Shown: positions 2,041-21,597 of the stretch, piece by piece
How the letters are laid out: each line of letters opens with the position of its first letter
How positions within the stretch are numbered: position 1 is the stretch's first letter
Source of the DNA: a virus
IMG/VR virus record: IMGVR_UViG_3300010885_024721
Coordinates: 1-21,636 of that record
Length of the DNA stretch: 21,636 bases
Strand: one strand, 5' to 3'
Translations under genes and position numbers: made by a program
The notes under the pieces: generated by a model
The model's database searches: none
What the model saw: the letters and a program-made list of their open reading frames with translations, nothing else
What the model was told of the DNA's origin: nothing

Positions 2041-2685
2041 ATGGCAAAATACTTTAGCAAATTTCCTAAAACTTATTATACTTTAGCGAATACTACTTAT
2101 AGTATTGATGTTGTTACAAACATCATATCCCGTTTTTCGCTTGAACAATCATTCAAAGACAATACATCAATTTATGAAAAATATAGTATTCAAGAAAGTG
2201 ATACACCAGAAATCATAGCATCAAAAATTTATGATTCACCTGAACGCCATTGGATTGTTTTGATGATGAATGATATTGTTGATCCTCAATATGATTGGCC
2301 ATTAGAATATAGAACACTAACAGCATTTATTAATGACAAATATACGGCAAATGCAAACACAGCTGCCGGTCAAACCGGTTTAATGTGGGCTCAAGAAAAT
2401 ACACATTCATATTATTCTGTTGAAAAAAGAACAACAATAAGAACAGGTGATTATTCTGAAAAGAAAGTTCGTGTTGACGCTAATACATATGCCAATGTAG
2501 TTACATCATCAACTAATAAAATACTTAATGATGGGAATGAAATTAAAATTGACACATCTAAAGAATCAATATCGTATTACACATATGAAATTGATGAGAA
2601 TGAAACAAAAAGGCAAATTAAAATTTTGAAACCAGAATTTGCTTATGCTCTTGAACAAGAGTTGAAAGTTGTATTTACCACATGA
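2041..2685 (+). CDS. 53: Baseplate wedge subunit gp53
   Basis: This 214-residue protein carries the signature of gp53, the wedge component that holds neighbouring wedges around the hub. The signature is the block at residues 50-90: DTPEIIASKIYDSPERHW, then IVLMMNDIVDPQYDWPL. This LysM-like stretch with His-Trp followed by an aromatic-Asp-Trp-Pro-Leu motif is diagnostic of the family. The N-terminus (KYFSKFPKTYYT) also fits. The C-terminal part (residues 100-214) is Lys/Thr-rich and less conserved. The gene starts three bases after the previous stop and its last codons overlap the next gene by four bases (ATGA). It is therefore probably translated as part of one operon with the 781 and 2682 genes. 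Confidence 0.92.
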   Translation: MAKYFSKFPKTYYTLANTTYSIDVVTNIISRFSLEQSFKDNTSIYEKYSIQESDTPEIIASKIYDSPERHWIVLMMNDIVDPQYDWPLEYRTLTAFINDKYTANANTAAGQTGLMWAQENTHSYYSVEKRTTIRTGDYSEKKVRVDANTYANVVTSSTNKILNDGNEIKIDTSKESISYYTYEIDENETKRQIKILKPEFAYALEQELKVVFTT

Positions 2686-4016
2686 GTCTTAATCTAACAC
2701 AAGCAACTCAATTTAAGATAAAGGATTTAACACTTATCACAAAATTGGGCAGCGTAAATATTACAGGTGTCTATCAAGAAATAAACATATATGATAGTAT
2801 GTTTATGCCTTGTGTTCGTGGTGATATTTTAATCCAAGATGCAATTGGTTTATGTAATAAACTTGTATTGGATGGTAGTGAATACATTTCAATGGAAATC
2901 ACAAAAGGTGAAGAATCTGAAAGTGATGCAACAACATTTAAAAAAACATTTAGAATTTACAAATTAAGTGGAAGAGAAAACATAAATCAAAATTCTGAAA
3001 TTTATGTTTTATATTTTGCTTCAGATGAAATGGTATATTCAGAACAACAAAAAATAAATCAATCATTTACTGGTGCATATAGTGATATTGTTAATGTCGT
3101 TTTAAGAAATTATCTTTCGGTTCCTAACAATAGAATAAACAAAATAGGAACAACAAAAGGTGTGCATACTGTGGTTATTCCAGGTTTATCACCATTTGAC
3201 ACAATGGAATGGTTGTGTAAGAAAGCAATTGATTTCGAATCTTTGCCTAACTTTTTGTTTTTTGAAAACAAGTATGGCTATAATTTTGTTTCATTATCAG
3301 AATTAATTCAAAAACCACCAATAATGAATATTAATTTTGAACCAAAAAACCTTCCTACGTCTGGCAGTAAGGAGTTTTATGGTGCTCGTGAAGCTAAAAT
3401 AGTTAGTTCAAACGATTTGATTGAAAATATAAAAAATGGTGTTTATGCAGGTAAATTTATTGGCATAGACCCACTAACAAGAAAAGTTAGTATTAACAAA
3501 ATAGATTTTCAACAGACATATGGCAAAACACAATCACATTTAAACAAGTATCCAAATTTTACAGGTGCTGTTAATAAAGATGGCCTTGATTCAGCACAGA
3601 TGTTTGATTCTAAAGTTTCATTGTATGCGTTTCAATCTTTTCGTGGTGCATCACCTTGGATTAAAAAAAATGATCCGAAAACAGGAATAATTATTAATGA
3701 CACTCATGCATATGTGTTTCAAAGAGCTCCTATATTCACAAACTTGTTACAAACAACAATACATTTGAATTTACCTGGTAATTTTGGTATCACATCTGGT
3801 TCTGTAATTAATTTAACTATGCCAGTAAAGTCAATAAAACCAGACGCTGGTGAAGCTATCGATGAAACCTTGAGTGGTAAATATATAGTTACAGCAGCAA
3901 GACAAATGATTAAAGGTGATATGCACGAAACAATTATTGAAGTAGCCACAGATTCTACAAATAGACCTTTCTTTAAACGATTAACAGATGAGTTGCTAAC
4001 AGCAACATTAATGTGA
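2682..4016 (+). CDS. Baseplate central hub protein, gp27-like
   Basis: This 444-residue protein sits between gp53 and the gp5 OB-fold gene. Its length is comparable to T4 gp27 (391 residues), which forms the trimeric hub that carries gp5. The first 75 residues form a beta-rich block (KLGSVNITGVYQEINIYDS, GDILIQDAIG) like the tube-type domains of hub proteins. A second part, around residues 165-210, reads GLSPFDTMEWLCKKAIDFE then NFLFFENKYGYNFVS. This is the pattern seen in gp27, Mu gp44 and gpD-type hub proteins: a helix that ends in a double-aromatic strand and a Gly turn. The C-terminal quarter (TIHLNLPGNFGITSGSVINL, GKYIVTAAR) again looks like a hub OB or tube domain. It overlaps the upstream gene by four bases and the downstream ATG by one. 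The identity comes from motif pattern plus context, not from a close sequence match. Confidence 0.75.
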   Translation: MSLNLTQATQFKIKDLTLITKLGSVNITGVYQEINIYDSMFMPCVRGDILIQDAIGLCNKLVLDGSEYISMEITKGEESESDATTFKKTFRIYKLSGRENINQNSEIYVLYFASDEMVYSEQQKINQSFTGAYSDIVNVVLRNYLSVPNNRINKIGTTKGVHTVVIPGLSPFDTMEWLCKKAIDFESLPNFLFFENKYGYNFVSLSELIQKPPIMNINFEPKNLPTSGSKEFYGAREAKIVSSNDLIENIKNGVYAGKFIGIDPLTRKVSINKIDFQQTYGKTQSHLNKYPNFTGAVNKDGLDSAQMFDSKVSLYAFQSFRGASPWIKKNDPKTGIIINDTHAYVFQRAPIFTNLLQTTIHLNLPGNFGITSGSVINLTMPVKSIKPDAGEAIDETLSGKYIVTAARQMIKGDMHETIIEVATDSTNRPFFKRLTDELLTATLM

Positions 4017-4324: not shown

Positions 4325-5506
4325 ATGGCTGAACTCATACCAATTGTTGCAGGCGCAGGTAACAGCGAGCTTGCCAGCCGTCTGGTCGTAGGAGAGGCAG
4401 ACCCTCCGGCGATTGTTCCGGTTGTAGAACCGATTGTGGTTGCTGTGGCTCCAGGTGCAACCAGTCCATTTGGTGGTACAGCCTTCAACAATGCAACTGC
4501 ACAAACTCCTACACCTGTGGATCCAGGTGCTAACACACCGTTTGGTGGTACAGTTTTCAACAATTCAATGAACGCTGCTGTAACTTCGATAAGGTCTGGC
4601 GTTGTAGTTCAAGATGCTGTTTTTGATGTAAGAAAGGCTGGCATAATTGTTATTAGTAATGGAAACATTAAAGAAAATGCACCGCCCGTATGTGTTCGCA
4701 CAGGTGATGCACCACAATCTGGAGAACCATCAAACACTCCAGGTACTTCTTATGGTAAGATTAACAATACCTGTATTGATGAAACAAATAAAAAACGGTC
4801 ACACGTTTGCGATTTTATTTCTGAGATGCAAAAAAATATTGCTTTGAAGGCCTACACTAAAGCTATTGGTGCAGCTATAAGAGAATCTATTAAAAAAATA
4901 ATGAAATTTTTAGGTTTAAGTGATAGAACAGGTAAATTTTCATATGTTATAAGCAGATTAAGAGCTTTTGCGGCTGAACTAAGAAGAATCAATAGAGAAA
5001 TTATACAACCAATTATTGATTTTGAAAGATATGTTTTAGCTTACATCACAAAACTTCGTGCTTTCATACAATGGCTTTTAAGTTTGCCAGCTGCTCTATT
5101 AGCACTACTTGCTGATTGTTTAGCGAGAGTATTAAAGTTAATTAGAAGTGTTTTTAGTGATATAATATCAGAAGCAACAAGTGGTGGTGATAAAACTAGT
5201 GAATTTTCAGAATTGATTGCGGCCGCCAAAGATGCGGCTAAAGCAACTGGAGAAACAATAAAAAAGGTTGTGGAGGCTACAACATTAGCAGTTGAAATTC
5301 CTATTGCTGCAACAGCTGGATTAATAGTTCCTGTTAGTCAATCTGAATTGAATGCTGCCAATACCACAATACAACAATTTAGTGCCTCGAGCCCTTCTTT
5401 ATCGGATATAGAAACTGCTGACCAAAATAAATTATCACAGTTTGGATATCCCGATAGAAACTATTTGAATGACCAACTTATGACATTAACGAAACCGGCA
5501 ATATAA
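4325..5506 (+). CDS. Helical, partly hydrophobic protein in the gp5 lysozyme position; function unknown
   Basis: This 393-residue protein lies between the OB-fold and beta-helix parts of the spike, where T4 gp5 has its lysozyme. No lysozyme motif is visible. Residues 28-43 are Pro/Val-rich (PPAIVPVVEPIVVAVAP), followed by two copies of a PGAxxPFGGTxFNN unit 24 residues apart (about 43-56 and 67-80). Residues 90-165 include four strands and three cysteines (123, 150, 162). Residues 170-285 are strongly helical and basic, with a hydrophobic stretch at 246-263 (AFIQWLLSLPAALLALLA). A second apolar segment lies at 317-337. The tail is polar. A GAGG ribosome site (4311-4314) precedes the ATG. The protein could be a hub plug, a tape-measure partner or a membrane-active tip component. 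None of these is established. It is probably a virion component because of its location. Confidence 0.85.
   Translation: MAELIPIVAGAGNSELASRLVVGEADPPAIVPVVEPIVVAVAPGATSPFGGTAFNNATAQTPTPVDPGANTPFGGTVFNNSMNAAVTSIRSGVVVQDAVFDVRKAGIIVISNGNIKENAPPVCVRTGDAPQSGEPSNTPGTSYGKINNTCIDETNKKRSHVCDFISEMQKNIALKAYTKAIGAAIRESIKKIMKFLGLSDRTGKFSYVISRLRAFAAELRRINREIIQPIIDFERYVLAYITKLRAFIQWLLSLPAALLALLADCLARVLKLIRSVFSDIISEATSGGDKTSEFSELIAAAKDAAKATGETIKKVVEATTLAVEIPIAATAGLIVPVSQSELNAANTTIQQFSASSPSLSDIETADQNKLSQFGYPDRNYLNDQLMTLTKPAI
4451..4564 (+). repeat. Two-copy tandem coding repeat, 72-base period
   Basis: CCAGGTGC...TTTGGTGGTACAG...TTCAACAAT occurs at 4451-4492 and again at 4523-4564. It encodes PGATSPFGGTAFNN and PGANTPFGGTVFNN. 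The copies differ at several third positions, so the repeat is not recent. It lies in a stretch that is G+C-richer than its surroundings. Confidence 0.85.
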
Positions 5507-5507
5507 T

Positions 5508-6398
5508 ATGGCAACAACACCAGAATTAGGAAACGTACCCAGCCTCGCAATTGATGCGGGTTGGACAGAACCAGAATCAGCTGCAAACACATCTTATCAG
5601 CCGCTTTATCCTTATAATGATGCAAAACAAACTGAGAGTGGACATCTATTTGAAATGGATGATACACCTACCCGTGAACGTATTCGTTTACAACACGGTA
5701 AAAGTTTAACCTTTTTTGAAATGCATCCTAATGGTGACCAAGTCCATAAAGTATTCGGTGATGATTATGAAATTACAATTAAAAATAAATGCGTTTTAAT
5801 TCAAGGACGTTGTAGTGTAACCGTTATCGGTGATTGCAATATGGAAGTTCGTGGTGATTATAATCTAGATGTAAAAGGTGATTATAATTTACAAGTTGCT
5901 GGTAAAATGAAAACCCGTGTCAAAGGTGATATAAGGATTTCTGGTGATGAATATGTTGCAATTACCGCAGATGAAAATATTGGTGGTACCATGTATCTCG
6001 GTGCTGCTGACAATATCACAATTGGTTCAGATATGAATCTTAAAGGTTCAATGGATGTGGATGGCACAGTTACTTGTGATACACTTATTGCTGATGGTGA
6101 TTTACAGTATGATGCGGTTGGAAATATTATTGGAGGTGGCGGTGTTTTTGCTGGACCATTTGGTTTTGTTTCAGTAAAAGGTGGTTTATCATTGGGTATT
6201 CCAATAGCAGTACCTGGCTCTGTTTTTGCTGTGGGTTCTGGAACATTTGGTATTAAAGTTTTTGCGCCTTATGTTTCATCATTGTATAGTTCAACAATTA
6301 TTGGTGGTGCGATATGGCAATCTGATATACTTAACTATGTTAAACGATTGATACATAGACCAGCTGGTACTGGTGAAATTAAAGCATCTGTGGCTTAA
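5508..6398 (+). CDS. Spike beta-helix protein, equivalent to gp5 C-terminal domain (gp5C)
   Basis: This 296-residue protein supplies the membrane-puncturing needle. Residues 44-92 (SGHLFEMDDTPTRERIRLQHG, FFEMHPNGDQVHKVFGDDYEI) are the conserved stretch that leads into the prism in gp5 and VgrG proteins. Next comes a run with valine and glycine at a strict period of eight: Gly100, 108, 116, 124, 132 and 140, with Val106, 114, 122, 130 and 138. This is the T4 gp5C octapeptide VxGxxxxx and predicts a trimeric three-stranded beta-helix. Residues 141-200 continue as a looser helix. Residues 203-260 are Gly-rich and hydrophobic (IIGGGGVFAGPFGF), and the end is basic and helical. T4 makes gp5C by cleaving gp5; here it is a separate gene, one base after the preceding stop. 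No PAAR-type tip gene (T4 gp5.4) follows. Confidence 0.88.
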   Translation: MATTPELGNVPSLAIDAGWTEPESAANTSYQPLYPYNDAKQTESGHLFEMDDTPTRERIRLQHGKSLTFFEMHPNGDQVHKVFGDDYEITIKNKCVLIQGRCSVTVIGDCNMEVRGDYNLDVKGDYNLQVAGKMKTRVKGDIRISGDEYVAITADENIGGTMYLGAADNITIGSDMNLKGSMDVDGTVTCDTLIADGDLQYDAVGNIIGGGGVFAGPFGFVSVKGGLSLGIPIAVPGSVFAVGSGTFGIKVFAPYVSSLYSSTIIGGAIWQSDILNYVKRLIHRPAGTGEIKASVA

Positions 6399-7252: not shown

Positions 7253-7657
7253 ATGGCAACCGTAACCACAGATATTGTTAGAGATTTCAAAGACTTGGAC
7301 TTGAATTTTACCATTCATCCAATTCGAAAAGACATTAATAGAGCCATCGGACCGATGGCTGTTGTCAATTCCATTAAAAATCTCATACTTACAAATTACT
7401 ATGAAAGACCATTTCAACCAGATGTTGGTTCAAATGTTCGTAGATTATTGTTCGAAAATCTTGATAATATTACGGCAACTACTTTAAAAAATGAGATAGA
7501 GCGGACTATTGCAAACTATGAACCTAGAGCTACCGTTAAAGCTATAAATGTGAAAGCAGATTTTGACAATAATGGATTCAAAGTTTACTTAGAATTTTTC
7601 ATTGTAAACCAAACACAACCCATCATAATTAATTTTCTCCTTGAACGGATCCGATAA
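7253..7657 (+). CDS. 25: Baseplate wedge subunit gp25
   Basis: This 134-residue protein has the length of T4 gp25 (132) and the marks of the GPW/gp25 family. These include the N-terminal strand-turn (DLDLNFTIHPIRKDINRA), the conserved VVNSIKNLILTNYYERPFQP block followed by GSNVRRLLFE at about residues 38-69, and the EPR motif in YEPRATV (residues 89-95). gp25 forms the core of each wedge with gp6 and gp53 and contacts the first sheath ring, linking baseplate change to sheath contraction. There is no Shine-Dalgarno sequence just before the ATG; the previous stop lies seven bases upstream, so coupled translation is likely. The next gene starts immediately after the TAA. Confidence 0.95.
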   Translation: MATVTTDIVRDFKDLDLNFTIHPIRKDINRAIGPMAVVNSIKNLILTNYYERPFQPDVGSNVRRLLFENLDNITATTLKNEIERTIANYEPRATVKAINVKADFDNNGFKVYLEFFIVNQTQPIIINFLLERIR

Positions 7658-8074
7658 ATGGCCAACGCACGTTTACAAATTACAGACCTTGATTTTGATA
7701 CAATCAAGAATAATTTAAAATCTTACCTACAACAACAATCTGAATTTACAGATTATGATTTTGAAGGTTCTAGTTTGAATATCCTTTTGGATATTCTGGC
7801 TTACAACACCCATTACAATGCTTATTATTTAAACATGGTTGCCAATGAGGCATTCATGGATACCGCACTATTGCGTGATTCTGTTGTTTCACACGCTAAA
7901 ACATTGAATTATGTTCCGTTCTCATATTCTGCATCCAAATCAATTATAAATTTAACTGTAACGTCTTTAAATAACACACCAGGTACATTAACATTACCTA
8001 AAGGTTTTACTTTCAGTTCAAATTTAATCGATAACATATCATACAATTTTGTTACAATTAAGATGCAACGGTAA
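7658..8074 (+). CDS. 6: Baseplate wedge subunit gp6, N-terminal fragment (frameshifted)
   Basis: The 138 residues visible in this frame are the start of gp6, the V-shaped wedge protein that forms the baseplate inner ring. The conserved opening is clear: LDFDTIKNNLKSYLQQQ, then YDFEGSSLNILLDILAYNTHYNAYY and MDTALLRDSVVSHAKTLNYVP. The frame stops at 8072-8074 after a stretch (YNFVTIKMQR) whose last residues do not fit the family. The rest of gp6 continues in the next frame at once, starting at 8062 with DATVTK. Joining the two gives about 684 residues, close to T4 gp6 (660). The break therefore looks like one lost base, not a real gene end. If the sequence is correct, this product would lack most of the protein. 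Confidence 0.85.
   Translation: MANARLQITDLDFDTIKNNLKSYLQQQSEFTDYDFEGSSLNILLDILAYNTHYNAYYLNMVANEAFMDTALLRDSVVSHAKTLNYVPFSYSASKSIINLTVTSLNNTPGTLTLPKGFTFSSNLIDNISYNFVTIKMQR
8057..8074 (+). other. Frameshift point inside gp6
   Basis: The upstream frame reads att-aag-atg-caa-cgg-taa here. The downstream frame is closed by a TAA at 8059-8061 and is open from 8062. The shift must therefore fall between about 8060 and 8074. Adding one A to the AA at 8060-8061 restores ...VTIKDATVTK... and a continuous reading frame. There is no canonical X-XXY-YYZ slippery heptamer. Confidence 0.85.
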
Positions 8075-8127
8075 CAAAATCCAACTCATCATACTTTTTT
8101 GAAAATTTAGAAATCTATGAAGGTAGG

Positions 8128-9711
8128 TTGGTAGATTACGTTTATACATTCAATAGAAATTCTAATCCAAAATCCATCTTTACGTTACCAGATTCGAACA
8201 TCGACACAAATACATTGTTTGTAAGTGTAACTGATGTGAGTGGTAATTCAGCAACACAAGTTTATAATCAAGTTACGGAAATCTTAGATGTTGATTCAAC
8301 ATCACAAGTTTATTTTTTACAAGAGTCTAAAAAAGGTAATTATGAGATTTACTTTGGTGATGGTGTAATTGGTAAAGCTCTCACCGATGGCTCTACTGTT
8401 AGTGTCAATTATCTTGTAACTTCAGGTATACCTGCAAATTCTGTTGATGGATTTATTCCAGATTCTTCTATTGGTGGATTTACTAATACGTCAATTGAAG
8501 TTGTAGCTGTAGCTAGCGGCGGTGCAATTCGTGAATCAGTAGACTCAATTAAATATTCTGCGGCTGCACAGTATGCTAATCAAAACAGGTTGGTAACAAT
8601 TAAAGATTATGAAACATATATTCAGTCAAAATATCCAAGTATAGATTCTTTATCTGTTTGGGGTGGAGAAGATGAAACACCGCCAGTATATGGTAAAGTA
8701 TTTGTTGCATTAAAACCAAAAACAAATTATTTTATTTCTGAATTAGAAAAAGCTCGTATTGTTTCTGAAATCATTGACCCAAAATCTATTGTAACGGTTC
8801 AATCTGAAATTCGTGATCCAGAATTTTTATATTTGTCCGTTGAATCTTCTGTTCAATATGATCCAAGAAAAACAGTTTTATCTGAAGATGCAATTAAAAC
8901 AAATATTAGAAATGCAATTATATCCTATCGTGATACATTTTTAAATAAATTTGGTGCAAGTTTTGTTTTATCAAAACTTCAAGATAACATTGACGGAACA
9001 GATATTAATGCTATTATTGGTTCTGAATCGACTGTTCGTGTCCAACGTAGATTTGAACCATCGTTGAATCAATCAGCGAGTTACAATATTAATTTCAATG
9101 TGCCTTTACATCGTGGTACAATTACAAATAAATTAACATCAACTGAGTTTAATGTGCTTGATAACACAGGCACATTAAGAACGGCACAATTTGATGAATC
9201 ACCACAATCATTCACAGGTGTTTCTGAAATCCAAGTTATTGATCCTGGTTCCGGTTACATAACTGCACCAACAGTTACAATTAATGGTGACGGTAATGGT
9301 GCAACCGCAGAAGCAACCATTGTAAATGGTCGTATTCAAAAAATTACAATTACAAATCGTGGTTCTGAATACACTAGAGCAACTGTAACTATTTCTGATG
9401 GTAGTGGTTATGGCGCTTCAGCTCTTGCTGTTGTAGATGCTAAAATTGGTACATTAAGGACCATCTATTATGATTCATTGGCACAAAGACAAATTATCAA
9501 TGCTAGTGCCGGTACAATTTTTTATGATACTGGTATTGTTATTATTAACGATATAAGATTTTTAGCTGTTAGTTCAACTGACAATTTAATTCGTATGACA
9601 ATTGAAGCTGAAAAAGGTATCATTCAATCAAAAAGAAATACTATTATTACAATAGATGAAACAGACCCAACATCAATTGTTACCACACTATCAAAAAATA
9701 CTAAACAATAA
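8128..9711 (+). CDS. 6: Baseplate wedge subunit gp6, C-terminal fragment
   Basis: This frame carries the remainder of gp6. It is open from 8062. The first start-like codon is a TTG at 8128, giving 527 residues, but a genuine start there is doubtful. Features include YEIYFGDGVIGKALTDGSTV, typical of the baseplate J/gp6 family, and then KYSAAAQYANQNRLVTIKDYE and VWGGEDETPPVYGKVFVALKP, also family hallmarks. Near the end a GxGY beta-module pair is inserted (about 9222-9450: DPGSGYITAPTVTI, GRIQKITI). After this the protein ends with a strand-rich segment and a Lys-rich tail. The stop overlaps the next ATG (TAATG). With the upstream fragment this is one gp6 gene interrupted by a single-base frameshift. 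Confidence 0.88.
   Translation: MVDYVYTFNRNSNPKSIFTLPDSNIDTNTLFVSVTDVSGNSATQVYNQVTEILDVDSTSQVYFLQESKKGNYEIYFGDGVIGKALTDGSTVSVNYLVTSGIPANSVDGFIPDSSIGGFTNTSIEVVAVASGGAIRESVDSIKYSAAAQYANQNRLVTIKDYETYIQSKYPSIDSLSVWGGEDETPPVYGKVFVALKPKTNYFISELEKARIVSEIIDPKSIVTVQSEIRDPEFLYLSVESSVQYDPRKTVLSEDAIKTNIRNAIISYRDTFLNKFGASFVLSKLQDNIDGTDINAIIGSESTVRVQRRFEPSLNQSASYNINFNVPLHRGTITNKLTSTEFNVLDNTGTLRTAQFDESPQSFTGVSEIQVIDPGSGYITAPTVTINGDGNGATAEATIVNGRIQKITITNRGSEYTRATVTISDGSGYGASALAVVDAKIGTLRTIYYDSLAQRQIINASAGTIFYDTGIVIINDIRFLAVSSTDNLIRMTIEAEKGIIQSKRNTIITIDETDPTSIVTTLSKNTKQ
9222..9450 (+). repeat. GxGY beta-module pair in gp6
   Basis: The encoded pattern is a valine-rich strand, DPGSGY, APTVTI, GNGATAEATIVNGRI, then a second copy, NRGSEYTRATVTI. 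The same module recurs in the genes at 9711, 12265 and 13831. It resembles repeats known from many phage tail proteins and probably forms a small beta-domain exposed on the baseplate. Confidence 0.7.
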
Positions 9712-12251
9712 TGTCTGAACAAAAAACATCATTACTGATTAATCGTCAGGTACCGGAGTTTGTTCGGGACGAATACCCTACGTTTGTTAATTTTTTAGAA
9801 GCTTACTATGAGTTTTTGGAAAATAAACAAACTGGTAAAAATAATGATTTAGTCAATAAATCAAAAGACCTTCGTTATCTTTCAGATGTTGATTATTCAA
9901 TAAATCAATTTGAAGATAATTTCCTCAATACATTTGCTACTTTTTTACCTAAAGATGTTCAAGTAGACAAAGCCTTTTTAATTAAACAAATGTTACCTTT
10001 GTATCTTGCAAAAGGTAATGAGAAATCTTTTAAACTTCTTTTTAGATTGATTTTTAATGAAGAAGTTGAGGTTATAAAACCAAAATCAAACATACTTAGA
10101 GCATCTGATGGTAAATGGTTAATTGAAAAGGCTTTTAGAATTTCGCAAGGTGTTTTTAGCACATATACCGCAAATGGTAACACATCTTCTAGTGCAACTG
10201 CATCAGGCAATACAGTATTTAAAATGGCGCAAATTGCTGCGTCTGATGAAATAGCTGTTTATGTAAACGATGTTTTACAAACTTCTGGATACAATGTTCG
10301 CCGAGAATCAAAGAAGGTTGTGTTTAACACAGCACCTTCAGCCAATTCAACAATCAAAATTTTATATAATGATTTTAATTACGCACTTTTAGAAAATAGA
10401 AAAATTACAGGTTCTTCTTCTGGTGCAACAGCTATTGTTGAAAGAGCTGCACAAAAAACTGTCAATGCAAAATCTGCATTTGAATTATATGTAAACGACA
10501 AAACACTTGTTGGTAATTTTGATAATGGTGAATTTGCCACACTCAATATAATTGGCGATAATAATGAATTAATTAATATTCTTGTTTCTGGCTTATCGAC
10601 ACTTGCAACAATTAATGTCATTGAGGGTGGTGCTAGTTACAATGTTGGTGACCCCGTTATTATTACCGGTGGTGGTCAAACAGAAACAGCTGAGGCTATT
10701 GTTTCAGAAGTGTTTTCTGGATTCATTAACCAAATTCGTGTTCTTGCTGGTGGTGCGGGTTTCAAAACTGGTTCAAATGTTAGACTTGTTGGTGCTACCG
10801 CAAATGCATCACTAGTTCTTGCTATTGATGCTGTTGATGTTTCTGGTGCAAATAGTGCAAACACATTTGTTGTAGATACGACAAGAATTGCTAACTACGC
10901 TTCGATTAATATTAGTGATGCTGATTACGGTTTTCCCAACACATCCATATCAGAGAATGTTAGTTCACGAATCATAGATGCTTTGGCATTTTCAAATGTA
11001 GTGAGTATTGGTCCAATCACCAACGTGGCAATTTTGTTTGCTAATGCAATTTTTGCATCTGTTCCAACTGTTGATGCCGATTCAGCACCTTTCACAAATG
11101 GTGCTTCTGAAGAACAACACGTTTTATACACACGTTCAGTAGGAAGAATTTCTATTAATAACGGTGGTGATGGATATAGAATTGGTGATGAATTAATCTT
11201 CACTACAACAGGCAACATGAATTTTGGTTTTGGTGCTGCAGCTGCCGTAACCAATGTATCTTCAATAGGTACAATCACTAAAGTTGAATTGCAACCACCT
11301 AGAATTACTGGTACAGCAAATGTTTATGGCAATACAAATGTAACTGTTAGTGGCACAGGCACATTTTTCTTAGATGAGTTGCGTGTTGGTGATAGAATTA
11401 TCGTCAATAATGAATCACGTTTTATCAATACGATTACTTCAAATACATCACTCAATGTAAATGTGAATTTCAATTCAGCAACAACTGGTGGTGGAAAGAA
11501 AATTGGTTTGTATGGTGCCTTACCTGTTGGTGGTGTTAATTATGAATCAACTAAATTACCATTAATTACAGTTTCTTCTGTTAATGGTGCTAACGCCAAC
11601 TTGTCAGTAATTGCATTGATGGGTGATGGAGAAAATCTATTAGCAACAGCAGACCAGGATCCTGGTGCAGTTTTAAAAATTCGAGTTGTTAATGCTGGTG
11701 CTGGTTATCAAACACCACCAACAATTGATTTGACACAAAAGGGTGATGGTACCGCTACTGCAAACGCTTTGGTTGAACCAAGTTATGTTACCTTCCCTGG
11801 TCGTTGGACAACATCTGATAGTATTCTTTCTGCATCTGAACGTGTGATGCAAGGTAGAGATTATTATGTTGATTATGCATACGTCTTGGCTTCAAAAGTT
11901 GAATCTTCTAAATTTAAAGAATTATTCAAGAATCTAATTCACCCAGCAGGATTTAAACAATATGCCGATTTTAGGGTTGATGAAACTATTTTAGCTAGTA
12001 ATATATCGGTTCTTGGTTACTCAAGTAATGTTATCTCTGGAACTGTAAACACGAATAGTAGCATCTATGTAACAGGCACCAACACATTGTTCAATATTGC
12101 AAATACTAATAATGTCATTACAATTGGAACACAAATTGCAATTAACGCTGAAATCAGAACAATCAGTAGTATTTTGAGTAATACGACATTGCGAGTTTCT
12201 TCTGCCTTTACTCAAACCGCAAATAACCAAGAACTTATAATTGTTACATAA
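9711..12251 (+). CDS. Large baseplate wedge protein in the gp7 position
   Basis: This 846-residue protein lies between gp6 and gp8, the place of T4 gp7 (1032 residues), which braces the wedge. The N-terminal 150 residues are the conserved part: VPEFVRDEYPTFVNFLEAYYEF, LPKDVQVDKAF, YLAKGNEKSFKLLFRLIFNEEV and LRASDGKW. I recognise this start from T4-like phages of aquatic bacteria but cannot prove homology to T4 gp7. A short beta-module follows (residues about 175-225: VYVNDVLQTSGYNV, VVFNTAPSANSTIKILY). Then come three GxGY-type modules (10605-10836, 11141-11320, 11678-11782) and two copies of a VxGTxTxF module (near 11341 and 12050). A conserved helical block (SSKFKELFKNLIHPAGFKQYA) sits before the second copy. 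The start codon overlaps the gp6 stop. Confidence 0.82.
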   Translation: MSEQKTSLLINRQVPEFVRDEYPTFVNFLEAYYEFLENKQTGKNNDLVNKSKDLRYLSDVDYSINQFEDNFLNTFATFLPKDVQVDKAFLIKQMLPLYLAKGNEKSFKLLFRLIFNEEVEVIKPKSNILRASDGKWLIEKAFRISQGVFSTYTANGNTSSSATASGNTVFKMAQIAASDEIAVYVNDVLQTSGYNVRRESKKVVFNTAPSANSTIKILYNDFNYALLENRKITGSSSGATAIVERAAQKTVNAKSAFELYVNDKTLVGNFDNGEFATLNIIGDNNELINILVSGLSTLATINVIEGGASYNVGDPVIITGGGQTETAEAIVSEVFSGFINQIRVLAGGAGFKTGSNVRLVGATANASLVLAIDAVDVSGANSANTFVVDTTRIANYASINISDADYGFPNTSISENVSSRIIDALAFSNVVSIGPITNVAILFANAIFASVPTVDADSAPFTNGASEEQHVLYTRSVGRISINNGGDGYRIGDELIFTTTGNMNFGFGAAAAVTNVSSIGTITKVELQPPRITGTANVYGNTNVTVSGTGTFFLDELRVGDRIIVNNESRFINTITSNTSLNVNVNFNSATTGGGKKIGLYGALPVGGVNYESTKLPLITVSSVNGANANLSVIALMGDGENLLATADQDPGAVLKIRVVNAGAGYQTPPTIDLTQKGDGTATANALVEPSYVTFPGRWTTSDSILSASERVMQGRDYYVDYAYVLASKVESSKFKELFKNLIHPAGFKQYADFRVDETILASNISVLGYSSNVISGTVNTNSSIYVTGTNTLFNIANTNNVITIGTQIAINAEIRTISSILSNTTLRVSSAFTQTANNQELIIVT
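10605..11782 (+). repeat. Three GxGY-type beta-modules in the gp7-position protein
   Basis: Module 1 (10605-10836) has EGGASY, GDPVIITGGG, then a second half with LAGGAGF. Module 2 (11141-11320) has NNGGDGYRIGDELIF. Module 3 (11678-11782) has NAGAGYQTPPTIDL. They share the strand-GxGY-strand-Gly-rich loop-Ala-rich strand plan but are diverged in sequence, and they are separated by other modules. Confidence 0.65.
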
Positions 12252-12254
12252 ATA
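12247..12254 (+). promoter_or_regulatory. Possible late-promoter box (CATAAATA) before gp8
   Basis: CATAAATA overlaps the TAA stop at 12249-12251 and ends ten bases before the gp8 ATG. It has one mismatch to the T4 late box. The spacing to the ATG is short, and the AT-rich setting makes chance possible. Confidence 0.35.
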
Positions 12255-12264
12255 AAGAATTACT

Positions 12265-13818
12265 ATGGCGACTTCATACACATCCAAAAAACTCTCGTTC
12301 AATAACGCAGAACAATTTAAAGAATCTTTTGCCGAACCACAACCAACAGTCGGTTACTTGTTCATTGGCAATAATGTTCCCTATGCAAACGAAGCATCAC
12401 CGAATTCTATTGTAGATTCTACATCCGATGAGAAAACGGTGTGGGACAATATGTTTGCTGCAAAAAAGATAACCGGTAACGATGTAGAATTGGTTACTCC
12501 ACGCATCAATTGGACTGCAAACAGACGATATAAACAGTTCGATGATAGAATTTCAACTGACGATTTATTGACTGCCGATACTGGTTCTGGTGGTAACAGT
12601 CAACCAATGTATGTGTTGACAAGTCAAAGAAATGTATATAAGTGTTTGTCAAACAACGCCAATGTCGTTTCCACAGTAGAACCATCAGGTGACTACAATA
12701 CTGCCAATGGTACAATTTTTACAGCAGATGGTTATATTTGGAAATACCTATACAATGTTAAATCATCTAACAAATTTTTAACGACAAGTTGGATGCCTGC
12801 ACCAGTTTCAACTTCAAAACTTGACTACAATGTTAGTTCCACAAGTGTAATTGAAGGTGAGTTAACGACCATTATGGTCACAAATAGTGGTACAGGTTAT
12901 GCAAATCCAACAACCACGGCTGCAGCTTTTGGTACTGGTGTTTCAACTCTGTCTTTGACTAGTACCAATAATGTCGCTGCCAATATGTCTGTAAGTGGTA
13001 CAGGTATTGCAGTAGGCACAACCGTTGCAACTGTTAATTCAATATTAAATATCATTACAATTTCTTCTGCAACCACGGCAAATGGTGGTGGTTCAGGTAA
13101 TAATATTACATTTAACACCAGAGTTTATATTCCAGGTGATGGTTCTGGTGCAGTAGCCACCGCAAATATCGTAAATAGTTCTATCTCAAAAGTTACGATT
13201 GATGTAACTGGTATAGGATATTCATATGCCAATGCCATAATTTTTGGTTCTGGCACTGGTGCAAACGTAAGAGTTGTTTTACCACCAAAATCGGGTCACG
13301 GATTCAACCCAGCCAAAGAATTGGACGGTTCAAATGTCATGGTTTCTGAGAGAATTGGCCAAGTCGATGCATCAGAAAATGGACTAATTTCTACATCAAC
13401 TTCAATAAGACAGTATGGTTTGCTGAGAGACCCGTATAAATATGGTGCGAACACAGTAGTATCAGCAGCTAATGCAAATACTGTTATCTCTCAAACCGTT
13501 AATTTGACTCTGGTTGCTGGTTCTCCATTTACTTTAAATGAGTTTGTTTATCAAGGTAGTGCGGCGAATAATGCTTATTTTTATGGTTTTGTCAATTCAC
13601 AATCATCAAATGAGGTTCGCCTAATTAAGGTAAGAGGTGATGTTGCGGTTGGTGGCACTTTAATTGGTGCCACGTCAGGTGTTACTAGAACGGTCGTTAG
13701 AAGATACGACCCCGAGTTTGAACCATATACAGGTGATATAGAGTATGTCGAAAATGTTGCAAAAATTCAAAGAGCAGACGGTCAAGCCGAAAATATTAAA
13801 TTTGTTATCAGATTTTAA
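12265..13818 (+). CDS. 8: Baseplate wedge subunit gp8
   Basis: This 517-residue protein is gp8, which binds gp7 and gp10 in the wedge. The conserved N-terminal body covers roughly residues 1-200: EQFKESFAEPQPTVGYLFIG, KTVWDNMFAAKKITGNDV, RINWTANRRYKQFDD, MYVLTSQRNVYKCLSNN, GYIWKYLYNVKSSNKFLTTSWMP. T4 gp8 is 334 residues. The excess is mainly an inserted block (residues about 200-345) made of a GxGY module with another beta-module nested inside it. The C-terminal body resumes with DPYKYGANT and continues to the final TGDIEYVENVAKIQRADGQ stretch, which is typical of the family. The ATG has no strong ribosome site and follows the previous stop by 13 bases. Confidence 0.9.
   Translation: MATSYTSKKLSFNNAEQFKESFAEPQPTVGYLFIGNNVPYANEASPNSIVDSTSDEKTVWDNMFAAKKITGNDVELVTPRINWTANRRYKQFDDRISTDDLLTADTGSGGNSQPMYVLTSQRNVYKCLSNNANVVSTVEPSGDYNTANGTIFTADGYIWKYLYNVKSSNKFLTTSWMPAPVSTSKLDYNVSSTSVIEGELTTIMVTNSGTGYANPTTTAAAFGTGVSTLSLTSTNNVAANMSVSGTGIAVGTTVATVNSILNIITISSATTANGGGSGNNITFNTRVYIPGDGSGAVATANIVNSSISKVTIDVTGIGYSYANAIIFGSGTGANVRVVLPPKSGHGFNPAKELDGSNVMVSERIGQVDASENGLISTSTSIRQYGLLRDPYKYGANTVVSAANANTVISQTVNLTLVAGSPFTLNEFVYQGSAANNAYFYGFVNSQSSNEVRLIKVRGDVAVGGTLIGATSGVTRTVVRRYDPEFEPYTGDIEYVENVAKIQRADGQAENIKFVIRF
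12862..13290 (+). repeat. GxGY module interrupted by a nested VSGTGI module in gp8
   Basis: The first half encodes VTNSGTGYANPTTT, and the second half, GDGSGAVATANIVNSSI then GIGYSYANAIIFG, begins about 13132. Between them (about 12940-13125) is a different module: VAANMSVSGTGIAVGTTV, then NIITISSATTAN. The nesting suggests insertion of one module into another. Confidence 0.65.
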
Positions 13819-13830
13819 GGAAATTATTTA

Positions 13831-16800
13831 ATGTCGTTAAATACTAATTTTAATGTCAATCCATACTATGATGATTTTGATGAAGATAAGAAATTTCTTC
13901 GGATATTATTTAAGCCTGGTTTTGCTGTTCAAGCCCGTGAATTAACACAATCTCAAACTATTTTACAGAAACAAATTGAACGCTTTGGTCAACACATTTT
14001 TAAAAATGGTTCTGTTGTTTCTGGTGGTCAACTGTTCATACATGATACCACATATTTAAATGTAAGCACAGATTATGCTGGTACTGCGGTTAATATCAAT
14101 AACTTTAATGGTAAAACAATTACCAATGTAGCAGGAACAAAAACAGGTCAAGTTGTAGTTGTTTATGATGTTAATTCTGGTACTGGTGATCCAAAAACAA
14201 TTTATGTGAAACAAATTTCAGGAACACCATTTGTTGCTGGAGATACAATTACCACAGTTGAAGATTCACCTGTTTTTGCTAATGTCGCAACAGGTGGTGT
14301 TGGAACTGGTCAAACATTTTCTGTAACTGATGGTGTTTATTTTTATGATGGATTTTTTCTTAAAAATAGTGAACAAACAATTGCCATTAGTAAATACAAT
14401 ACGTCATCTAATGTAAGAGTTGGTTTTGAAATTACAGAATCTATCATTGAATATACACAAGATACATCTTTGCTGGATCCAGCGCAAGATGCTTCTAATT
14501 TCCAAGCACCAGGTGCTGACCGATTTAAAGTTGATTTAATTCTTTCTAGTCGTTCATTAACTTCTACTGATGACACTCAATTTATTGAGTTAGCTAGAGT
14601 TCAAAGTGGAACTTTATCTTACGCATTAATTTACCCACAGTATGCTGTTCTTGAAGATACTCTTGCTCGTAGAACATATGATGAGTCTGGTAACTATACT
14701 GTTCGACCATTCAAACTTGCATTAGAAACAAGTGCAGCTAATACTGCCAAAGCTAATGTTATTTTATCTCCAGGTAAAGCATATGTTTATGGTTATGAAT
14801 ATGAAACAATTTCACCAACAACAATCACATTTGATAAACCACGCACAACAGATTCAGTTTTAGATAAACGATTAACTGCTGATTATGGTTACTATGTGTA
14901 TTCAAATACACATTTTGGTTCTTTACCAATTAACAGTTTACAAACAGTAGATTTGCATTGTGTATCAAATAGCACAATTAACGTAGCAACTGCTGGCACA
15001 ATTACCAACACTAAAATTGGTACAGCTCGTGTCAAATCTATTGCATTTGAATCCGCAGCAAATACACAAAATTCTGCAACCTACACTTATCGCACATATT
15101 TGTTTGATATAAATGTTGGTTCTGTTGCTGGTGGTAATGTTGTTGCTCTAGGAACAAACACAAGTTATGTGCAAATTGCAAATACTATAACTGGTTCAAA
15201 TTTATATTCTACTGCTAACAATGCCTATACTGGTGCTAAATTTAGAGTTATTGCAGGCACAGGTTCAGGTCAAACACCAAAAACCATTGTAAATTATAAT
15301 GGTGCAAATCACACAATACAACTTGCTGAACCATTTAACACAACATTAGATGCAACTTCAAACTGGTCTATTGACTTTGAAGTTAATGATGTTAAGTCGC
15401 TATCAGTAGTTAGTGGTACAACTCGTCTTGCCGCAGCTGATATTGATACCTCATCTAAAGATTTAGCTTCAACATTTAACGACACATTTATTTCAGATAG
15501 TAACCTTGAGCCATTATTGTTTAATCTTGGCCAAAACTATATTGCACAAAATACAATTGCTGATTTTTCATACTCTTATAAACGTCTGTATCAATCACAA
15601 TCGTTTTCATCTTCAGATTCTCCAGCATTAACTGTTGGTACAGGTGAAACAATTTCTGCTGCTACAAGTTCTTCCGCTAAAGCTGAGAACTATCAGATTG
15701 TTGTAACAACTCCAGGTACATCACCATATACTATTGGTCAAATTATTCCTGCCAACTTATACACAGTAGATACAGGTACTCGTAAAATTACTGTTACTTC
15801 AGGTAACAACATGGTTGCAAATATTACTGCAACAATTGATGCAAGTAATCCTGGTTCAAAAGGCAAAACATACGTTGGTGCCAATGCTACTGTGCAAACT
15901 TCTGGTGGTACAAGCATTTTTGCAAATAACGGAGTAATGCTCTATACAGCAAATGGCCAAGTTCATATAATGGCCAATACAATCATTAAAACTCCAGATT
16001 CTATTCAATCACTATTTGTTCCTGATGTGATTGAATTGGTTTCTGTTTTAGATTTTAATAATACTGCAATTACTGTTGCTAACTCAGCAATCGCAACCGA
16101 TGTTACATCACGATACACATTAGATAGTGGTCAAAGAGATTCATTCTATGACCACTCATCTATTAGATTGAAGGCTGGTTCAGTTGCACCTACCGGCCCA
16201 TTGGTTGTTAAATTTAATCGTTTCAGTTCATCTGGTGCAGGATTCTTTACCGTAGATTCATATGTTGGATACAATTACGGAAGTATTCCTGCTTACACTT
16301 CTGCGGCAACAGGGCAAGTTTACCAATTAAGAGATTGCCTTGATTATAGACCTGTTAGGTCAATACCCACAACACCAACGACAGCAAACACCGTCAGCTT
16401 TGATGTTGACTCAACCACGACTGGTCCTAAGATTCCAGAGAATGGTTCCGATGTGATTTTAGATTATCAGTATTTTCTACCAAGAATAGATAAGGTATTA
16501 TTAAATAAAAATCGTACCTTTGAAGTTGTTCAAGGTAACCCTTCTCTGACGCCAGTTCCACCTCTTGATAAAGATGGTGCAATGACGATGTATATTCTTC
16601 GTGAGCCTGCTTATGTTGCTAATACATCAGATATTGAAGTTCAATATATTGATAATAGACGTTATACAATGCGTGATATTGCTAACATCGATAAACGTGT
16701 TGGTAATTTAGAATATTACACTTCACTTTCTCTATTAGAACAAAATGCATTGAACAAACAAGATTTAACTATTTTAGACTCTACAAATTTACCAAGATTT

Positions 16801-19773
16801 AAAAATGGTATTATTGTGGACTCATTTGATGGTACATCTGTTGCTGACGTAACCAATACTGACTATTCTGTTTCTATTGATCCTAGAAAAAAGGAAGTTA
16901 GACCAACATTTAATATTACATCACATGGATTAACATTCGATTCAGCAAACTCATCTAATTATTTGCAAGCTGGTCCAATTGTGATGCCAAATGCATCTCC
17001 TAATACTGTTTTTGTTGACCAAAACAAATCTTCAAAAGTTTACAATATTAACCCATTTAATATTGTAAATTACATTGGTAAAATTCAGTTGAATCCACCA
17101 TCAGATGTTTGGATTGATACCGACAAACAGCCAGACGTTCTTGTAAACCTTGAAGGTGATAAAGATGCGTGGGCTCTGATTACTCAAAATGCTTTTAGTT
17201 ACGAATGGGGTAATTGGGAAACTTATTGGACAGGTACATCAACTTCTTCGTCTGTTAATCAACATACTGGTGGTCGCCAAGCAATCATTGAAACTACGAC
17301 CACAACTACTAGCAAAAAAGATACTCGTGCGGGTGTGCTATCAACAGTAGTTCCGTCAACAATCGTTGAATCATTAGGTGACCGTGTTATTGATGTATCA
17401 ATTATTCCGTATATGCGTGACCGTGGCATATTGTTTACTTGTTCCGATTTCAAACCAAATACCGAACTTTATGGATTCTTCGACAATATTAGTGTAAACA
17501 AATATATTGCTCGTGCGAATAAATTTACTTTAAGTTCCAACAACTTAGGTTATATTACACAATCTGGTAATCCAGAAGCTGTGAATGTTACCAATACAGC
17601 AACAAGCACCGTAAATGCAACAGCGTTTATTGTTCGCACATCAAACAGAGAAGCATTTGTAGTTAATTTAAATCCTTCATCGTTGTTAAATTCTGCAACT
17701 ATGAATTTGGTTGGCCAATCAAGTGGCACATCAATTAGAATTGATGGATATGACCACTATTCAGGATTTGTAACTTCTGCCACATCAAACACCATTGTAT
17801 TGGCTGTAGATGTTACAAGCGCAAACAATACTGGTAATTACGCTGGTGCAACAGTTTATATTGTATCTGGAACTGGTGCTGGCCAATCAGCTACAGTTTC
17901 TTCTTATACCGCAGGGACAAGAACATTAACAATTGTTGGAACATGGACAACTACACCAACATCTAATTCTTTATACTCAATTGGTAACTTAACAACAACA
18001 GCTGCAGGTGATGTTGCTGGTGTGTTCAACATTCCAAATGGAGTGTTCCGTATTGGTGAAAAGAATTTCAGATTGATTGATACTTCAAGTGGTGATATTG
18101 GTTCATCTTCTACAAACGGAGATGCTGCATTTTTTGCACAAGGCATTTTACAAAGAACAGAAAATACAATTATTTCTGCAACTGTTCCAACAATTCAACG
18201 TGTTGATGTTAAAGATAATCGTGTTGTTACAACATCATCTGTATCACAACGTCAAATTGGTTGGTATGATCCATTAGCACAAACATTCTTAGTATCACCA
18301 ACAAACTACCCACAAGGTATTTTCTTGTCTAAGGCTCGTTTCTGCTTTAAATCAAAGGATGCAACTGTACCTGTTACATTGCAAGTTCGTTCTGTTGTGA
18401 ATGGATATCCATCAACATCTTTGGTTTATCCTTACTCAACTGTTACATTGACACCTGATAAAGTTAAAACAACAACTTCACCTGATTTGGATGATGCAAC
18501 CAAATACACAGAATTTGTATTTGATTCTCCATTGTTCTTACAACCTGGTGAACATTGTTTTGTATTGTTGTCTAACTCTAACAAATATGAAACTTATGCG
18601 GCTGAAATTGGTAAATTAGATACAGTATCAGCAAGACAGATTTCAGAACAACCATATCAAGGTTCATTGTTCTTATCACAAAATGGTTCGACATGGACCG
18701 CCGAACAAAATGCAGACTTGATGTTTAGATTGTTTAGATATACATTTAGCACTGGTACAACTGAAGCACAATTTAATGTGAATTATCCTGCTGCTAATAC
18801 AGCATATGATTTAATGCATTTAATGGCTACAGGAATATCTGTTGAAAATACTTCAATCACATATCAATTTAATTCCGAAAAAGCCACTACTGGTGGAAAA
18901 ACTGGATTGTTGCCATTTACTCCGTTTACTGATTACCCAATGACTGATGGTTATGGACGCCGTGTGTTAACAACAACTGCTAATACAACATTAACAGTTA
19001 AAGCTACAATGGCTACTAGTAATCCAGATGTTGCACCATTCATTGATACTTCTCGTATGGGTATGATTGCAGTTGAAAACATTATCAATGATTTACCACT
19101 AAGCAATTCTGGAATTGTATTGTCAAGTGGTGGAACAGGTTACTCAACTAACGCTAATGCCGTTGTAACAATTACTGGTGGTGGCGGTTCAGGTGCCACG
19201 GCAGCTGCTGTTGTAACTAACAATGTCGTTACATCTGTATATCTAACTGCTGCTGGTTCTGGTTACGAAACATCACCAACAATTACATTGGTTGATGCTA
19301 ATACAACACCAGGTACCGGTGTAACAATCACCTATAACGGTGAAGATAAGAAATCTGGTGGTAACTCTATTGTTCGTTATATTACCCGCAAGGTTAATTT
19401 AGCAGATGGATTTGATTCTGGTGATTTGCGTGTTTATGTGACCGCATATAAACCATCTAATTCGAACATTCGTGTCTATTACAAAATGTTGTCTATTTCT
19501 GATCCTGATGCATTTGAAGATAAAAACTATCAGTTAATGACACAATTAAATAACACTAATTTTGTGTCAAATAATTATAACGATTATCGTGAAATTTCAT
19601 ATGCTCCAGGTGTAAATGGTACTGCAAACAATTCAGTAAGCTATACTTCTGGTTCAACTGCATATAGTAACTTTAGAACATTTGCCATTAAGATTGTATT
19701 GACTGGTCAATCAACTGTTGATGTGCCAAAAGTTCGTGATTTCCGTGCAATCGCATTGCCTGCTGGTTCATAA
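13831..19773 (+). CDS. Giant baseplate/virion structural protein (DUF4815 type)
   Basis: At 1980 residues this is the largest gene in the window. It has a clear ribosome site (AAGGAAA, 13817-13823). Its first 80 residues are a strong family mark: NVNPYYDDFDEDKKFLRILF, PGFAVQARELTQSQTILQKQ and ERFGQHIFKNGSVVSGGQLF, the DUF4815 signature of large structural proteins in T4-like phages. Other recognisable blocks are NAFSYEWGNWETYWTG (near residue 1125), a Thr-rich run, then ESLGDRVIDVSIIPYMRDRGI (about 1180), and YDPLAQTFLVSPTNYPQGIF with VPVTLQVRSVVNGYPS (about 1478-1530). Two copies of a GTGxGQ module lie near residues 465-517 and 1335-1387, and a GxGY pair at 19105-19350. It follows gp8 where T4 has genes 9 and 10, so it probably forms the outer baseplate and fibre-attachment layer. 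Its size suggests it replaces several T4 proteins; this is inference. Confidence 0.9.
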   Translation: MSLNTNFNVNPYYDDFDEDKKFLRILFKPGFAVQARELTQSQTILQKQIERFGQHIFKNGSVVSGGQLFIHDTTYLNVSTDYAGTAVNINNFNGKTITNVAGTKTGQVVVVYDVNSGTGDPKTIYVKQISGTPFVAGDTITTVEDSPVFANVATGGVGTGQTFSVTDGVYFYDGFFLKNSEQTIAISKYNTSSNVRVGFEITESIIEYTQDTSLLDPAQDASNFQAPGADRFKVDLILSSRSLTSTDDTQFIELARVQSGTLSYALIYPQYAVLEDTLARRTYDESGNYTVRPFKLALETSAANTAKANVILSPGKAYVYGYEYETISPTTITFDKPRTTDSVLDKRLTADYGYYVYSNTHFGSLPINSLQTVDLHCVSNSTINVATAGTITNTKIGTARVKSIAFESAANTQNSATYTYRTYLFDINVGSVAGGNVVALGTNTSYVQIANTITGSNLYSTANNAYTGAKFRVIAGTGSGQTPKTIVNYNGANHTIQLAEPFNTTLDATSNWSIDFEVNDVKSLSVVSGTTRLAAADIDTSSKDLASTFNDTFISDSNLEPLLFNLGQNYIAQNTIADFSYSYKRLYQSQSFSSSDSPALTVGTGETISAATSSSAKAENYQIVVTTPGTSPYTIGQIIPANLYTVDTGTRKITVTSGNNMVANITATIDASNPGSKGKTYVGANATVQTSGGTSIFANNGVMLYTANGQVHIMANTIIKTPDSIQSLFVPDVIELVSVLDFNNTAITVANSAIATDVTSRYTLDSGQRDSFYDHSSIRLKAGSVAPTGPLVVKFNRFSSSGAGFFTVDSYVGYNYGSIPAYTSAATGQVYQLRDCLDYRPVRSIPTTPTTANTVSFDVDSTTTGPKIPENGSDVILDYQYFLPRIDKVLLNKNRTFEVVQGNPSLTPVPPLDKDGAMTMYILREPAYVANTSDIEVQYIDNRRYTMRDIANIDKRVGNLEYYTSLSLLEQNALNKQDLTILDSTNLPRFKNGIIVDSFDGTSVADVTNTDYSVSIDPRKKEVRPTFNITSHGLTFDSANSSNYLQAGPIVMPNASPNTVFVDQNKSSKVYNINPFNIVNYIGKIQLNPPSDVWIDTDKQPDVLVNLEGDKDAWALITQNAFSYEWGNWETYWTGTSTSSSVNQHTGGRQAIIETTTTTTSKKDTRAGVLSTVVPSTIVESLGDRVIDVSIIPYMRDRGILFTCSDFKPNTELYGFFDNISVNKYIARANKFTLSSNNLGYITQSGNPEAVNVTNTATSTVNATAFIVRTSNREAFVVNLNPSSLLNSATMNLVGQSSGTSIRIDGYDHYSGFVTSATSNTIVLAVDVTSANNTGNYAGATVYIVSGTGAGQSATVSSYTAGTRTLTIVGTWTTTPTSNSLYSIGNLTTTAAGDVAGVFNIPNGVFRIGEKNFRLIDTSSGDIGSSSTNGDAAFFAQGILQRTENTIISATVPTIQRVDVKDNRVVTTSSVSQRQIGWYDPLAQTFLVSPTNYPQGIFLSKARFCFKSKDATVPVTLQVRSVVNGYPSTSLVYPYSTVTLTPDKVKTTTSPDLDDATKYTEFVFDSPLFLQPGEHCFVLLSNSNKYETYAAEIGKLDTVSARQISEQPYQGSLFLSQNGSTWTAEQNADLMFRLFRYTFSTGTTEAQFNVNYPAANTAYDLMHLMATGISVENTSITYQFNSEKATTGGKTGLLPFTPFTDYPMTDGYGRRVLTTTANTTLTVKATMATSNPDVAPFIDTSRMGMIAVENIINDLPLSNSGIVLSSGGTGYSTNANAVVTITGGGGSGATAAAVVTNNVVTSVYLTAAGSGYETSPTITLVDANTTPGTGVTITYNGEDKKSGGNSIVRYITRKVNLADGFDSGDLRVYVTAYKPSNSNIRVYYKMLSISDPDAFEDKNYQLMTQLNNTNFVSNNYNDYREISYAPGVNGTANNSVSYTSGSTAYSNFRTFAIKIVLTGQSTVDVPKVRDFRAIALPAGS
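15223..15380 (+). repeat. GTGxGQ beta-module, copy 1, in the giant protein
   Basis: This encodes YTGAKFRVIAGTGSGQ, an NYNGANHTIQL strand and DATSNWSI. It aligns in order with the block at 17833-17991. The shared plan is GA-strand, GTGxGQ, Tyr turn, strand, then a Ser/Thr-rich segment ending in an aromatic-Ser-Ile. Confidence 0.6.
17833..17991 (+). repeat. GTGxGQ beta-module, copy 2, in the giant protein
   Basis: This encodes YAGATVYIVSGTGAGQ, SYTAGTRTLTIVG and TSNSLYSIG. It is a diverged partner of the block at 15223-15380, about 2.6 kb upstream in the same gene. Confidence 0.6.
19105..19350 (+). repeat. GxGY beta-module pair in the giant protein
   Basis: This encodes LSSGGTGYSTNAN, VVTITGGGGSGATAAAVV, then TAAGSGYETSPTITLVD. 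It is the most regular copy of the module found in gp6, the gp7-position protein and gp8. It sits just before the conserved C-terminal domain. Confidence 0.75.
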
Positions 19774-20895: not shown

Positions 20896-21597
20896 ATGGC
20901 ATACCTTGGCAACGAGCCTGGTGTAGGATCATTTATCGTTTCAACCGAAAGGTTCAACGGTACGGGTTCTTGCACACAATTTTCGTTAACTCAAACAGGC
21001 ATTCAAGACCCAAATGCGATTGAGGTTCTTGTTAATAGTATTCAACAGGATCCAATAAATTCATATTCTGTTGCCAATGGTGTAATCACGTTTACTGAGG
21101 CACCTTCATCTGGCGCAAATAACATTACTGTTACATATCGTGCAACGACAGTAATTACCTATAATAATATATTAAATTCTCAAATACCAGACGGAACAAT
21201 TACTGCATCCAAGTTAGCCTCTGGTGTTTTACCTGATGCAAAAACTAATTCGGCTGCAACGTATGCTAATTCAGGATTTGCAGTAGCTAACTCAGCTGCA
21301 TCATATGCTAATGCCGCTTTCGGTCAAGCAAACAATGTAATCGGTGCCGCATCATATGCCAACTCGGCATTCTCTGCTGCGAATACTGGTGGTTCAGCGG
21401 CAGCTTATGCTAACGGTGCTTTTGCACAGGCGAATAATGATGTAACTAACATAAGTATTACTAGTGGTACATTCGGCAATGCAGCATATTATCCAATTAT
21501 TACTGTTTCTGCGAATGGTAGGATTAATACAGTATCAACACAAGTGGTAACGGGTGTGGATGCTCATCCGTTTTTCTTTACAGCAATGGGGTCATAA
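20896..21597 (+). CDS. Tail fibre-like protein with AAxYAN repeats
   Basis: This 233-residue protein starts one base after the previous stop (TAATATGG). Residues 1-75 hold a beta-module (MAYLGNEPGVGSF, then EVLVNSIQQDPINSYSVANG, and TFTEAPSSGANNITVTYRAT). This type is common at the attachment end of phage fibres and is related in pattern to a segment of the 9711 gene. A linker with IPDGTITASKLASG follows. Residues 120-180 contain four copies of AAxYANxxFxxAN, likely a helical or coiled shaft. The end (NAAYYPIITVSANGRINTVS) resembles the short motif that closes many fibre proteins. It is short for a complete fibre; the distal part may be another gene or a partner chain. Confidence 0.83.
   Translation: MAYLGNEPGVGSFIVSTERFNGTGSCTQFSLTQTGIQDPNAIEVLVNSIQQDPINSYSVANGVITFTEAPSSGANNITVTYRATTVITYNNILNSQIPDGTITASKLASGVLPDAKTNSAATYANSGFAVANSAASYANAAFGQANNVIGAASYANSAFSAANTGGSAAAYANGAFAQANNDVTNISITSGTFGNAAYYPIITVSANGRINTVSTQVVTGVDAHPFFFTAMGS
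21253..21445 (+). repeat. Four-copy AAxYANxAF coding repeat
   Basis: Units start at 21253, 21295, 21346 and 21397, so the spacing is 42, 51 and 51 bases (14, 17 and 17 residues). They encode AATYANSGFAVAN, AASYANAAFGQAN, AASYANSAFSAAN and AAAYANGAFAQAN. Codon choice differs between copies. Confidence 0.85.

Follow-up and report, generated by a model that had tools for sequence, protein, structure and literature searches.

A T4-like baseplate wedge gene, gp6, interrupted by an apparent one-base loss in a single viral metagenome contig

In phage T4 the core wedge protein gp6 forms a continuous ring of the baseplate, and the wedges are built in a strictly ordered assembly that stalls in the absence of one of the components, gp6 for example (PMC3004832). 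The statement in the earlier note on this DNA that gp6 is essential in T4 is therefore in line with published work. T4 gp6 (PDB 5hx2/5iv5) belongs to the same family as homologues from marine T4-like phages, among them Pelagibacter phage Mosig, cyanophages and Methylophilales phage Melnitz. The gp6 gene analyzed here is a further member of this family. It lies in a contig from environmental sequencing (IMG/VR record IMGVR_UViG_3300010885_024721, positions 1 to 21,636), and the whole 21,636-base viral stretch, termed the window, carries a T4-like tail and baseplate gene cluster. T4, the marine T4-like phages and the window share a gene neighborhood made up of gp53, gp5-like hub/lysozyme, gp25-like, gp6, wedge subunit and gp8. 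Unlike in these systems, however, the gp6 copy of the window is interrupted, with one base missing. A second difference is a small C-terminal repeat domain in the gp6 of this clade, which is also found in its gp8.

The cluster comprises a tail-tube-cap-like gene (781-2037), gp53 (2041-2685), a tail protein (2682-4016), a 393-aa ORF (4325-5506), a gp5-like hub/lysozyme (5508-6398), a gp25-like wedge gene (7253-7657), gp6 in two frames (7658-9711), a large wedge subunit of 846 aa (9711-12251), gp8 (12265-13818) and a 1980-aa protein (13831-19773). The gp25-like gene was named from its baseplate wedge match (phrog_261/phrog_43) and its position. Upstream of the cluster, on the minus strand, a divergent ORF (301-747) has a TnsA-like endonuclease N-terminal domain (Pfam, E 5e-24), and its product may be the head-completion protein of T4-like phages, gp4. 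A local hypervariable segment (4330-4640) lies at the beginning of the 393-aa ORF; it is unaligned in most close relatives while both its flanks align. Moreover, the 3' end of the 846-aa wedge ORF (12076-12265) is unlike that of the relatives, whose version has 873 aa in L075, L076 and L082. L075 and L076 carry additional DNA at this ORF end, which in L076 includes an ORF of about 470 aa related to the window gene at 20896-21597. This suggests that the region is a mobile or exchanged tail module. A search of an annotated phage collection for DNA near-identical to the window found none.

The gp6 gene is thus located inside the wedge gene cluster, with the gp25-like gene on one side and other wedge genes on the other. 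Its N-terminal piece (7658-8074, plus strand) is a 138-aa ORF that consists of 134-135 family residues and an out-of-frame tail, MQR, followed by TAA. The C-terminal 549 residues lie in another frame of the same strand, in a stop-to-stop ORF (8062-9711, coding to 9708) that has no ATG near its beginning and offers TTG at 8128 as the first of the common start codons. Both pieces match a single family, phrog_219 ('baseplate wedge subunit'), and do so in order: the first at profile positions 3-132 (E 7e-50), the second at positions 160-585 (E 2e-98). In addition, the N-terminal piece matches the helical N-terminal domain of gp6 above the cut-off (Pfam Gp6-like_1st, PF21379, E 2.9e-22). Domain III at the C-terminus (PF21871, E 1.4e-5) scores 25.5 bits, slightly below the cut-off of 27, and we counted both domains as present. 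Compared to intact relatives, the first piece extends from residue 1 to residue 134 or 135, the second comprises residues 136-684, and no family content is lost between them. These alignments and the phrog_219 matches confirm the proposal that two parts of one protein lie in different frames with continuous family content; the proposed sizes, about 136 and 550 residues of a total of about 684, were right as well. The intact relative L011 aligns with T4 gp6 in the PDB (E 1.2e-48) and is ungapped at the column of the window's break, placing the junction inside an ungapped aligned stretch. The C-terminal part of gp6 (9274-9450) also contains a repeat of about 60 residues of the 'GSGY..APTVTI' type, which shares 47% identity with part of gp8 (13123-13296; blastp E 2e-6). 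The 846-aa wedge subunit has weaker stretches of this kind, which match repeats found in large virion proteins. Adjacent baseplate proteins therefore seem to share a decorating domain.

The lesion can be narrowed to a few bases. When the window was aligned with close relatives, all 12 alignments left the window a single base short with no compensation, the gap falling at 8060 in ten alignments and at 8062 in the other two; other gaps whose length is not a multiple of three appear as locally offset pairs or groups. This bears out the apparent one-base loss that had been reported for gp6, and puts the deficit at 8059/8060, in codon 135. The N-terminal frame agrees with the relatives up to residue 134 (codon 8057-8059), and the C-terminal frame does so starting at the aspartate encoded at 8062. 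Since a TAA at 8059-8061 lies in the downstream frame and a TAA at 8072-8074 in the upstream frame, the shift is confined to the 16 bases 8059-8074, TAAGATGCAACGGTAA, where the relatives have one base more. The interval given before, 8057-8127, contains the break and is too wide. The suggested loss of an A near 8061 found no support, as the closest relatives usually have a different codon at that column.

Relatives were searched for in the viral collection with the downstream half of gp6 only, so that intact copies were not favored by the choice of query. The search yielded 73 loci with amino-acid identities of 54-95%, and in 73 of 73 both halves of gp6 form a single uninterrupted frame, which in the window they do not. 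All 73 read straight across the junction, which settles the comparison with close relatives that had been proposed as a check. An exact match to the 18-base string of the broken junction was seen in no other contig of the viral collection. Its intact 19-base counterpart is present in three relatives and in L134, which does not match the window at the DNA level and was left out of the set. A systematic split of the gene across the clade is thereby ruled out.

Selection on the two halves was estimated as dN/dS (Nei-Gojobori) between the window and ten relatives, with the distant L013 excluded. The upstream half gave values of 0.04-0.11 and the downstream half values of 0.10-0.15; for L013 they were 0.07 and 0.21, respectively. 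Pairs of intact relatives gave 0.08-0.18 in the downstream half, which is matched by the halves of the window. The gene is therefore not drifting as a dead gene would, and a long-dead pseudogene was rejected. Judged by these ratios, the break should be either very recent or not present in the phage.

Purifying selection on both halves, together with their close spacing and overlapping register, is also what would be expected if ribosomes shifted frame within 8059-8074, in a programmed or tolerated manner, and produced full-length gp6. However, the 16 bases between the two stops contain no X_XXY_YYZ motif, in agreement with the earlier remark that a classic slippery heptamer is missing. Moreover, the RNA downstream of the break folds no better than shuffled sequences (z-score -0.71), a search for Rfam elements gave no match, and the shift is needed by 0 of 73 relatives, so that a conserved signal is absent. 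On these grounds recoding was rejected, and we give it hardly any credence. We consider it just as improbable that gp6 functions as two chains, the second of which is made from an internal start such as the TTG at 8128. This codon is directly preceded by a purine-rich stretch, but the purine-rich codons are coding sequence that is present in the relatives too. The downstream frame offers no ATG close to where it opens, and initiation at the TTG would drop about 22 residues that are conserved among the relatives, in a region that aligns to T4 gp6 and is ungapped at the junction. A split gene is found in 0 of 73 relatives. Even taken together, the two readings account for a very small share of the probability. 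Much the same holds for the general proposition of a real short form that is fixed in this phage, with gp6 made through an unrecognized frameshift within the 16 bases or as two cooperating chains, which is very improbable.

The main rival to a technical error is a genuine defective variant, that is, a real and recent one-base deletion in the phage genome or lineage, possibly carried along by co-infecting intact phage. In favor of this variant, the consensus just lacks the base, the break does not fall in a long homopolymer, other frameshifts are missing from this group of contigs, and a very recent mutation would predict undiminished selection equally well. On the other hand, a consensus should show the majority of the reads, and a variant lacking gp6 should not dominate. 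Such dominance is unlikely because wedge assembly in T4 is strictly ordered and gp6 forms the baseplate ring. Furthermore, the broken junction is seen in no other contig. We regard this variant as possible but rather unlikely.

The missing base is probably a sequencing or consensus error, or an error of assembly. When 74 contigs (832 kb) were scanned for genes divided between frames, the gp6 of the window was the sole case, and in the other 73 contigs of the group (about 810 kb) no frameshift was detected. Such errors are thus rare in the collection, which counts against an error, as does the position of the break away from the long homopolymers where indel errors are commonest. A contig of generally low quality was ruled out, since no second split gene was detected in the window. 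Viral assemblies from short reads scaffolded with long reads contain fewer than 2 indels per 100 kb, and in long-read-only assemblies indels are far more frequent (PMC6487183). The single indel in the 21.6 kb of the window fits the lower of these rates, although the platform of the benchmark may not be that of the contig. In the published viral metagenomes, too, a single-base indel breaks an otherwise conserved gene (PMC6487183).

Between 6800 and 10450 the nearest relative of the window alternates along the baseplate genes between the L002/L076 and the L078/L082 groups, indicating strong mosaicism, which may be natural or may stem from co-assembly of strains. One switch, from the L002/L076 to the L078/L082 type, lies between 7996 and 8009 and precedes the break by some 50-60 bases. 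This is suggestive, but only suggestive, of a chimeric consensus of two strains that changes over near the break. Switches around 7250 and 8570 are not accompanied by an indel, and natural recombination therefore explains the mosaic equally well.

We propose that the window carries an ordinary T4-type gp6 gene whose contig consensus is short of one base in codon 135, most likely through a sequencing or assembly slip. If the assembler was responsible, a join of co-occurring, closely related strains would be a plausible route, as the nearest relative switches not far from the break. In the phage population, gp6 would very probably be encoded as an uninterrupted protein of 684 residues. A technical origin of the deficit, which we infer from its absence from the relatives, the purifying selection on both halves and the lack of a second detectable frameshift, is most likely. 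Of the three explanations offered in the earlier note, an error and a dead variant in a population stand, whereas an unusual recoding event is very unlikely.

For annotation, the consequence is that automatic gene callers would report gp6 as a truncated gene followed by another ORF with a shifted start. The biological weight of the finding is small: most likely, the interruption involves no new biological mechanism and is not a real feature of the phage. When an essential gene appears broken in one metagenome contig, its relatives should be compared before recoding or gene loss is claimed.
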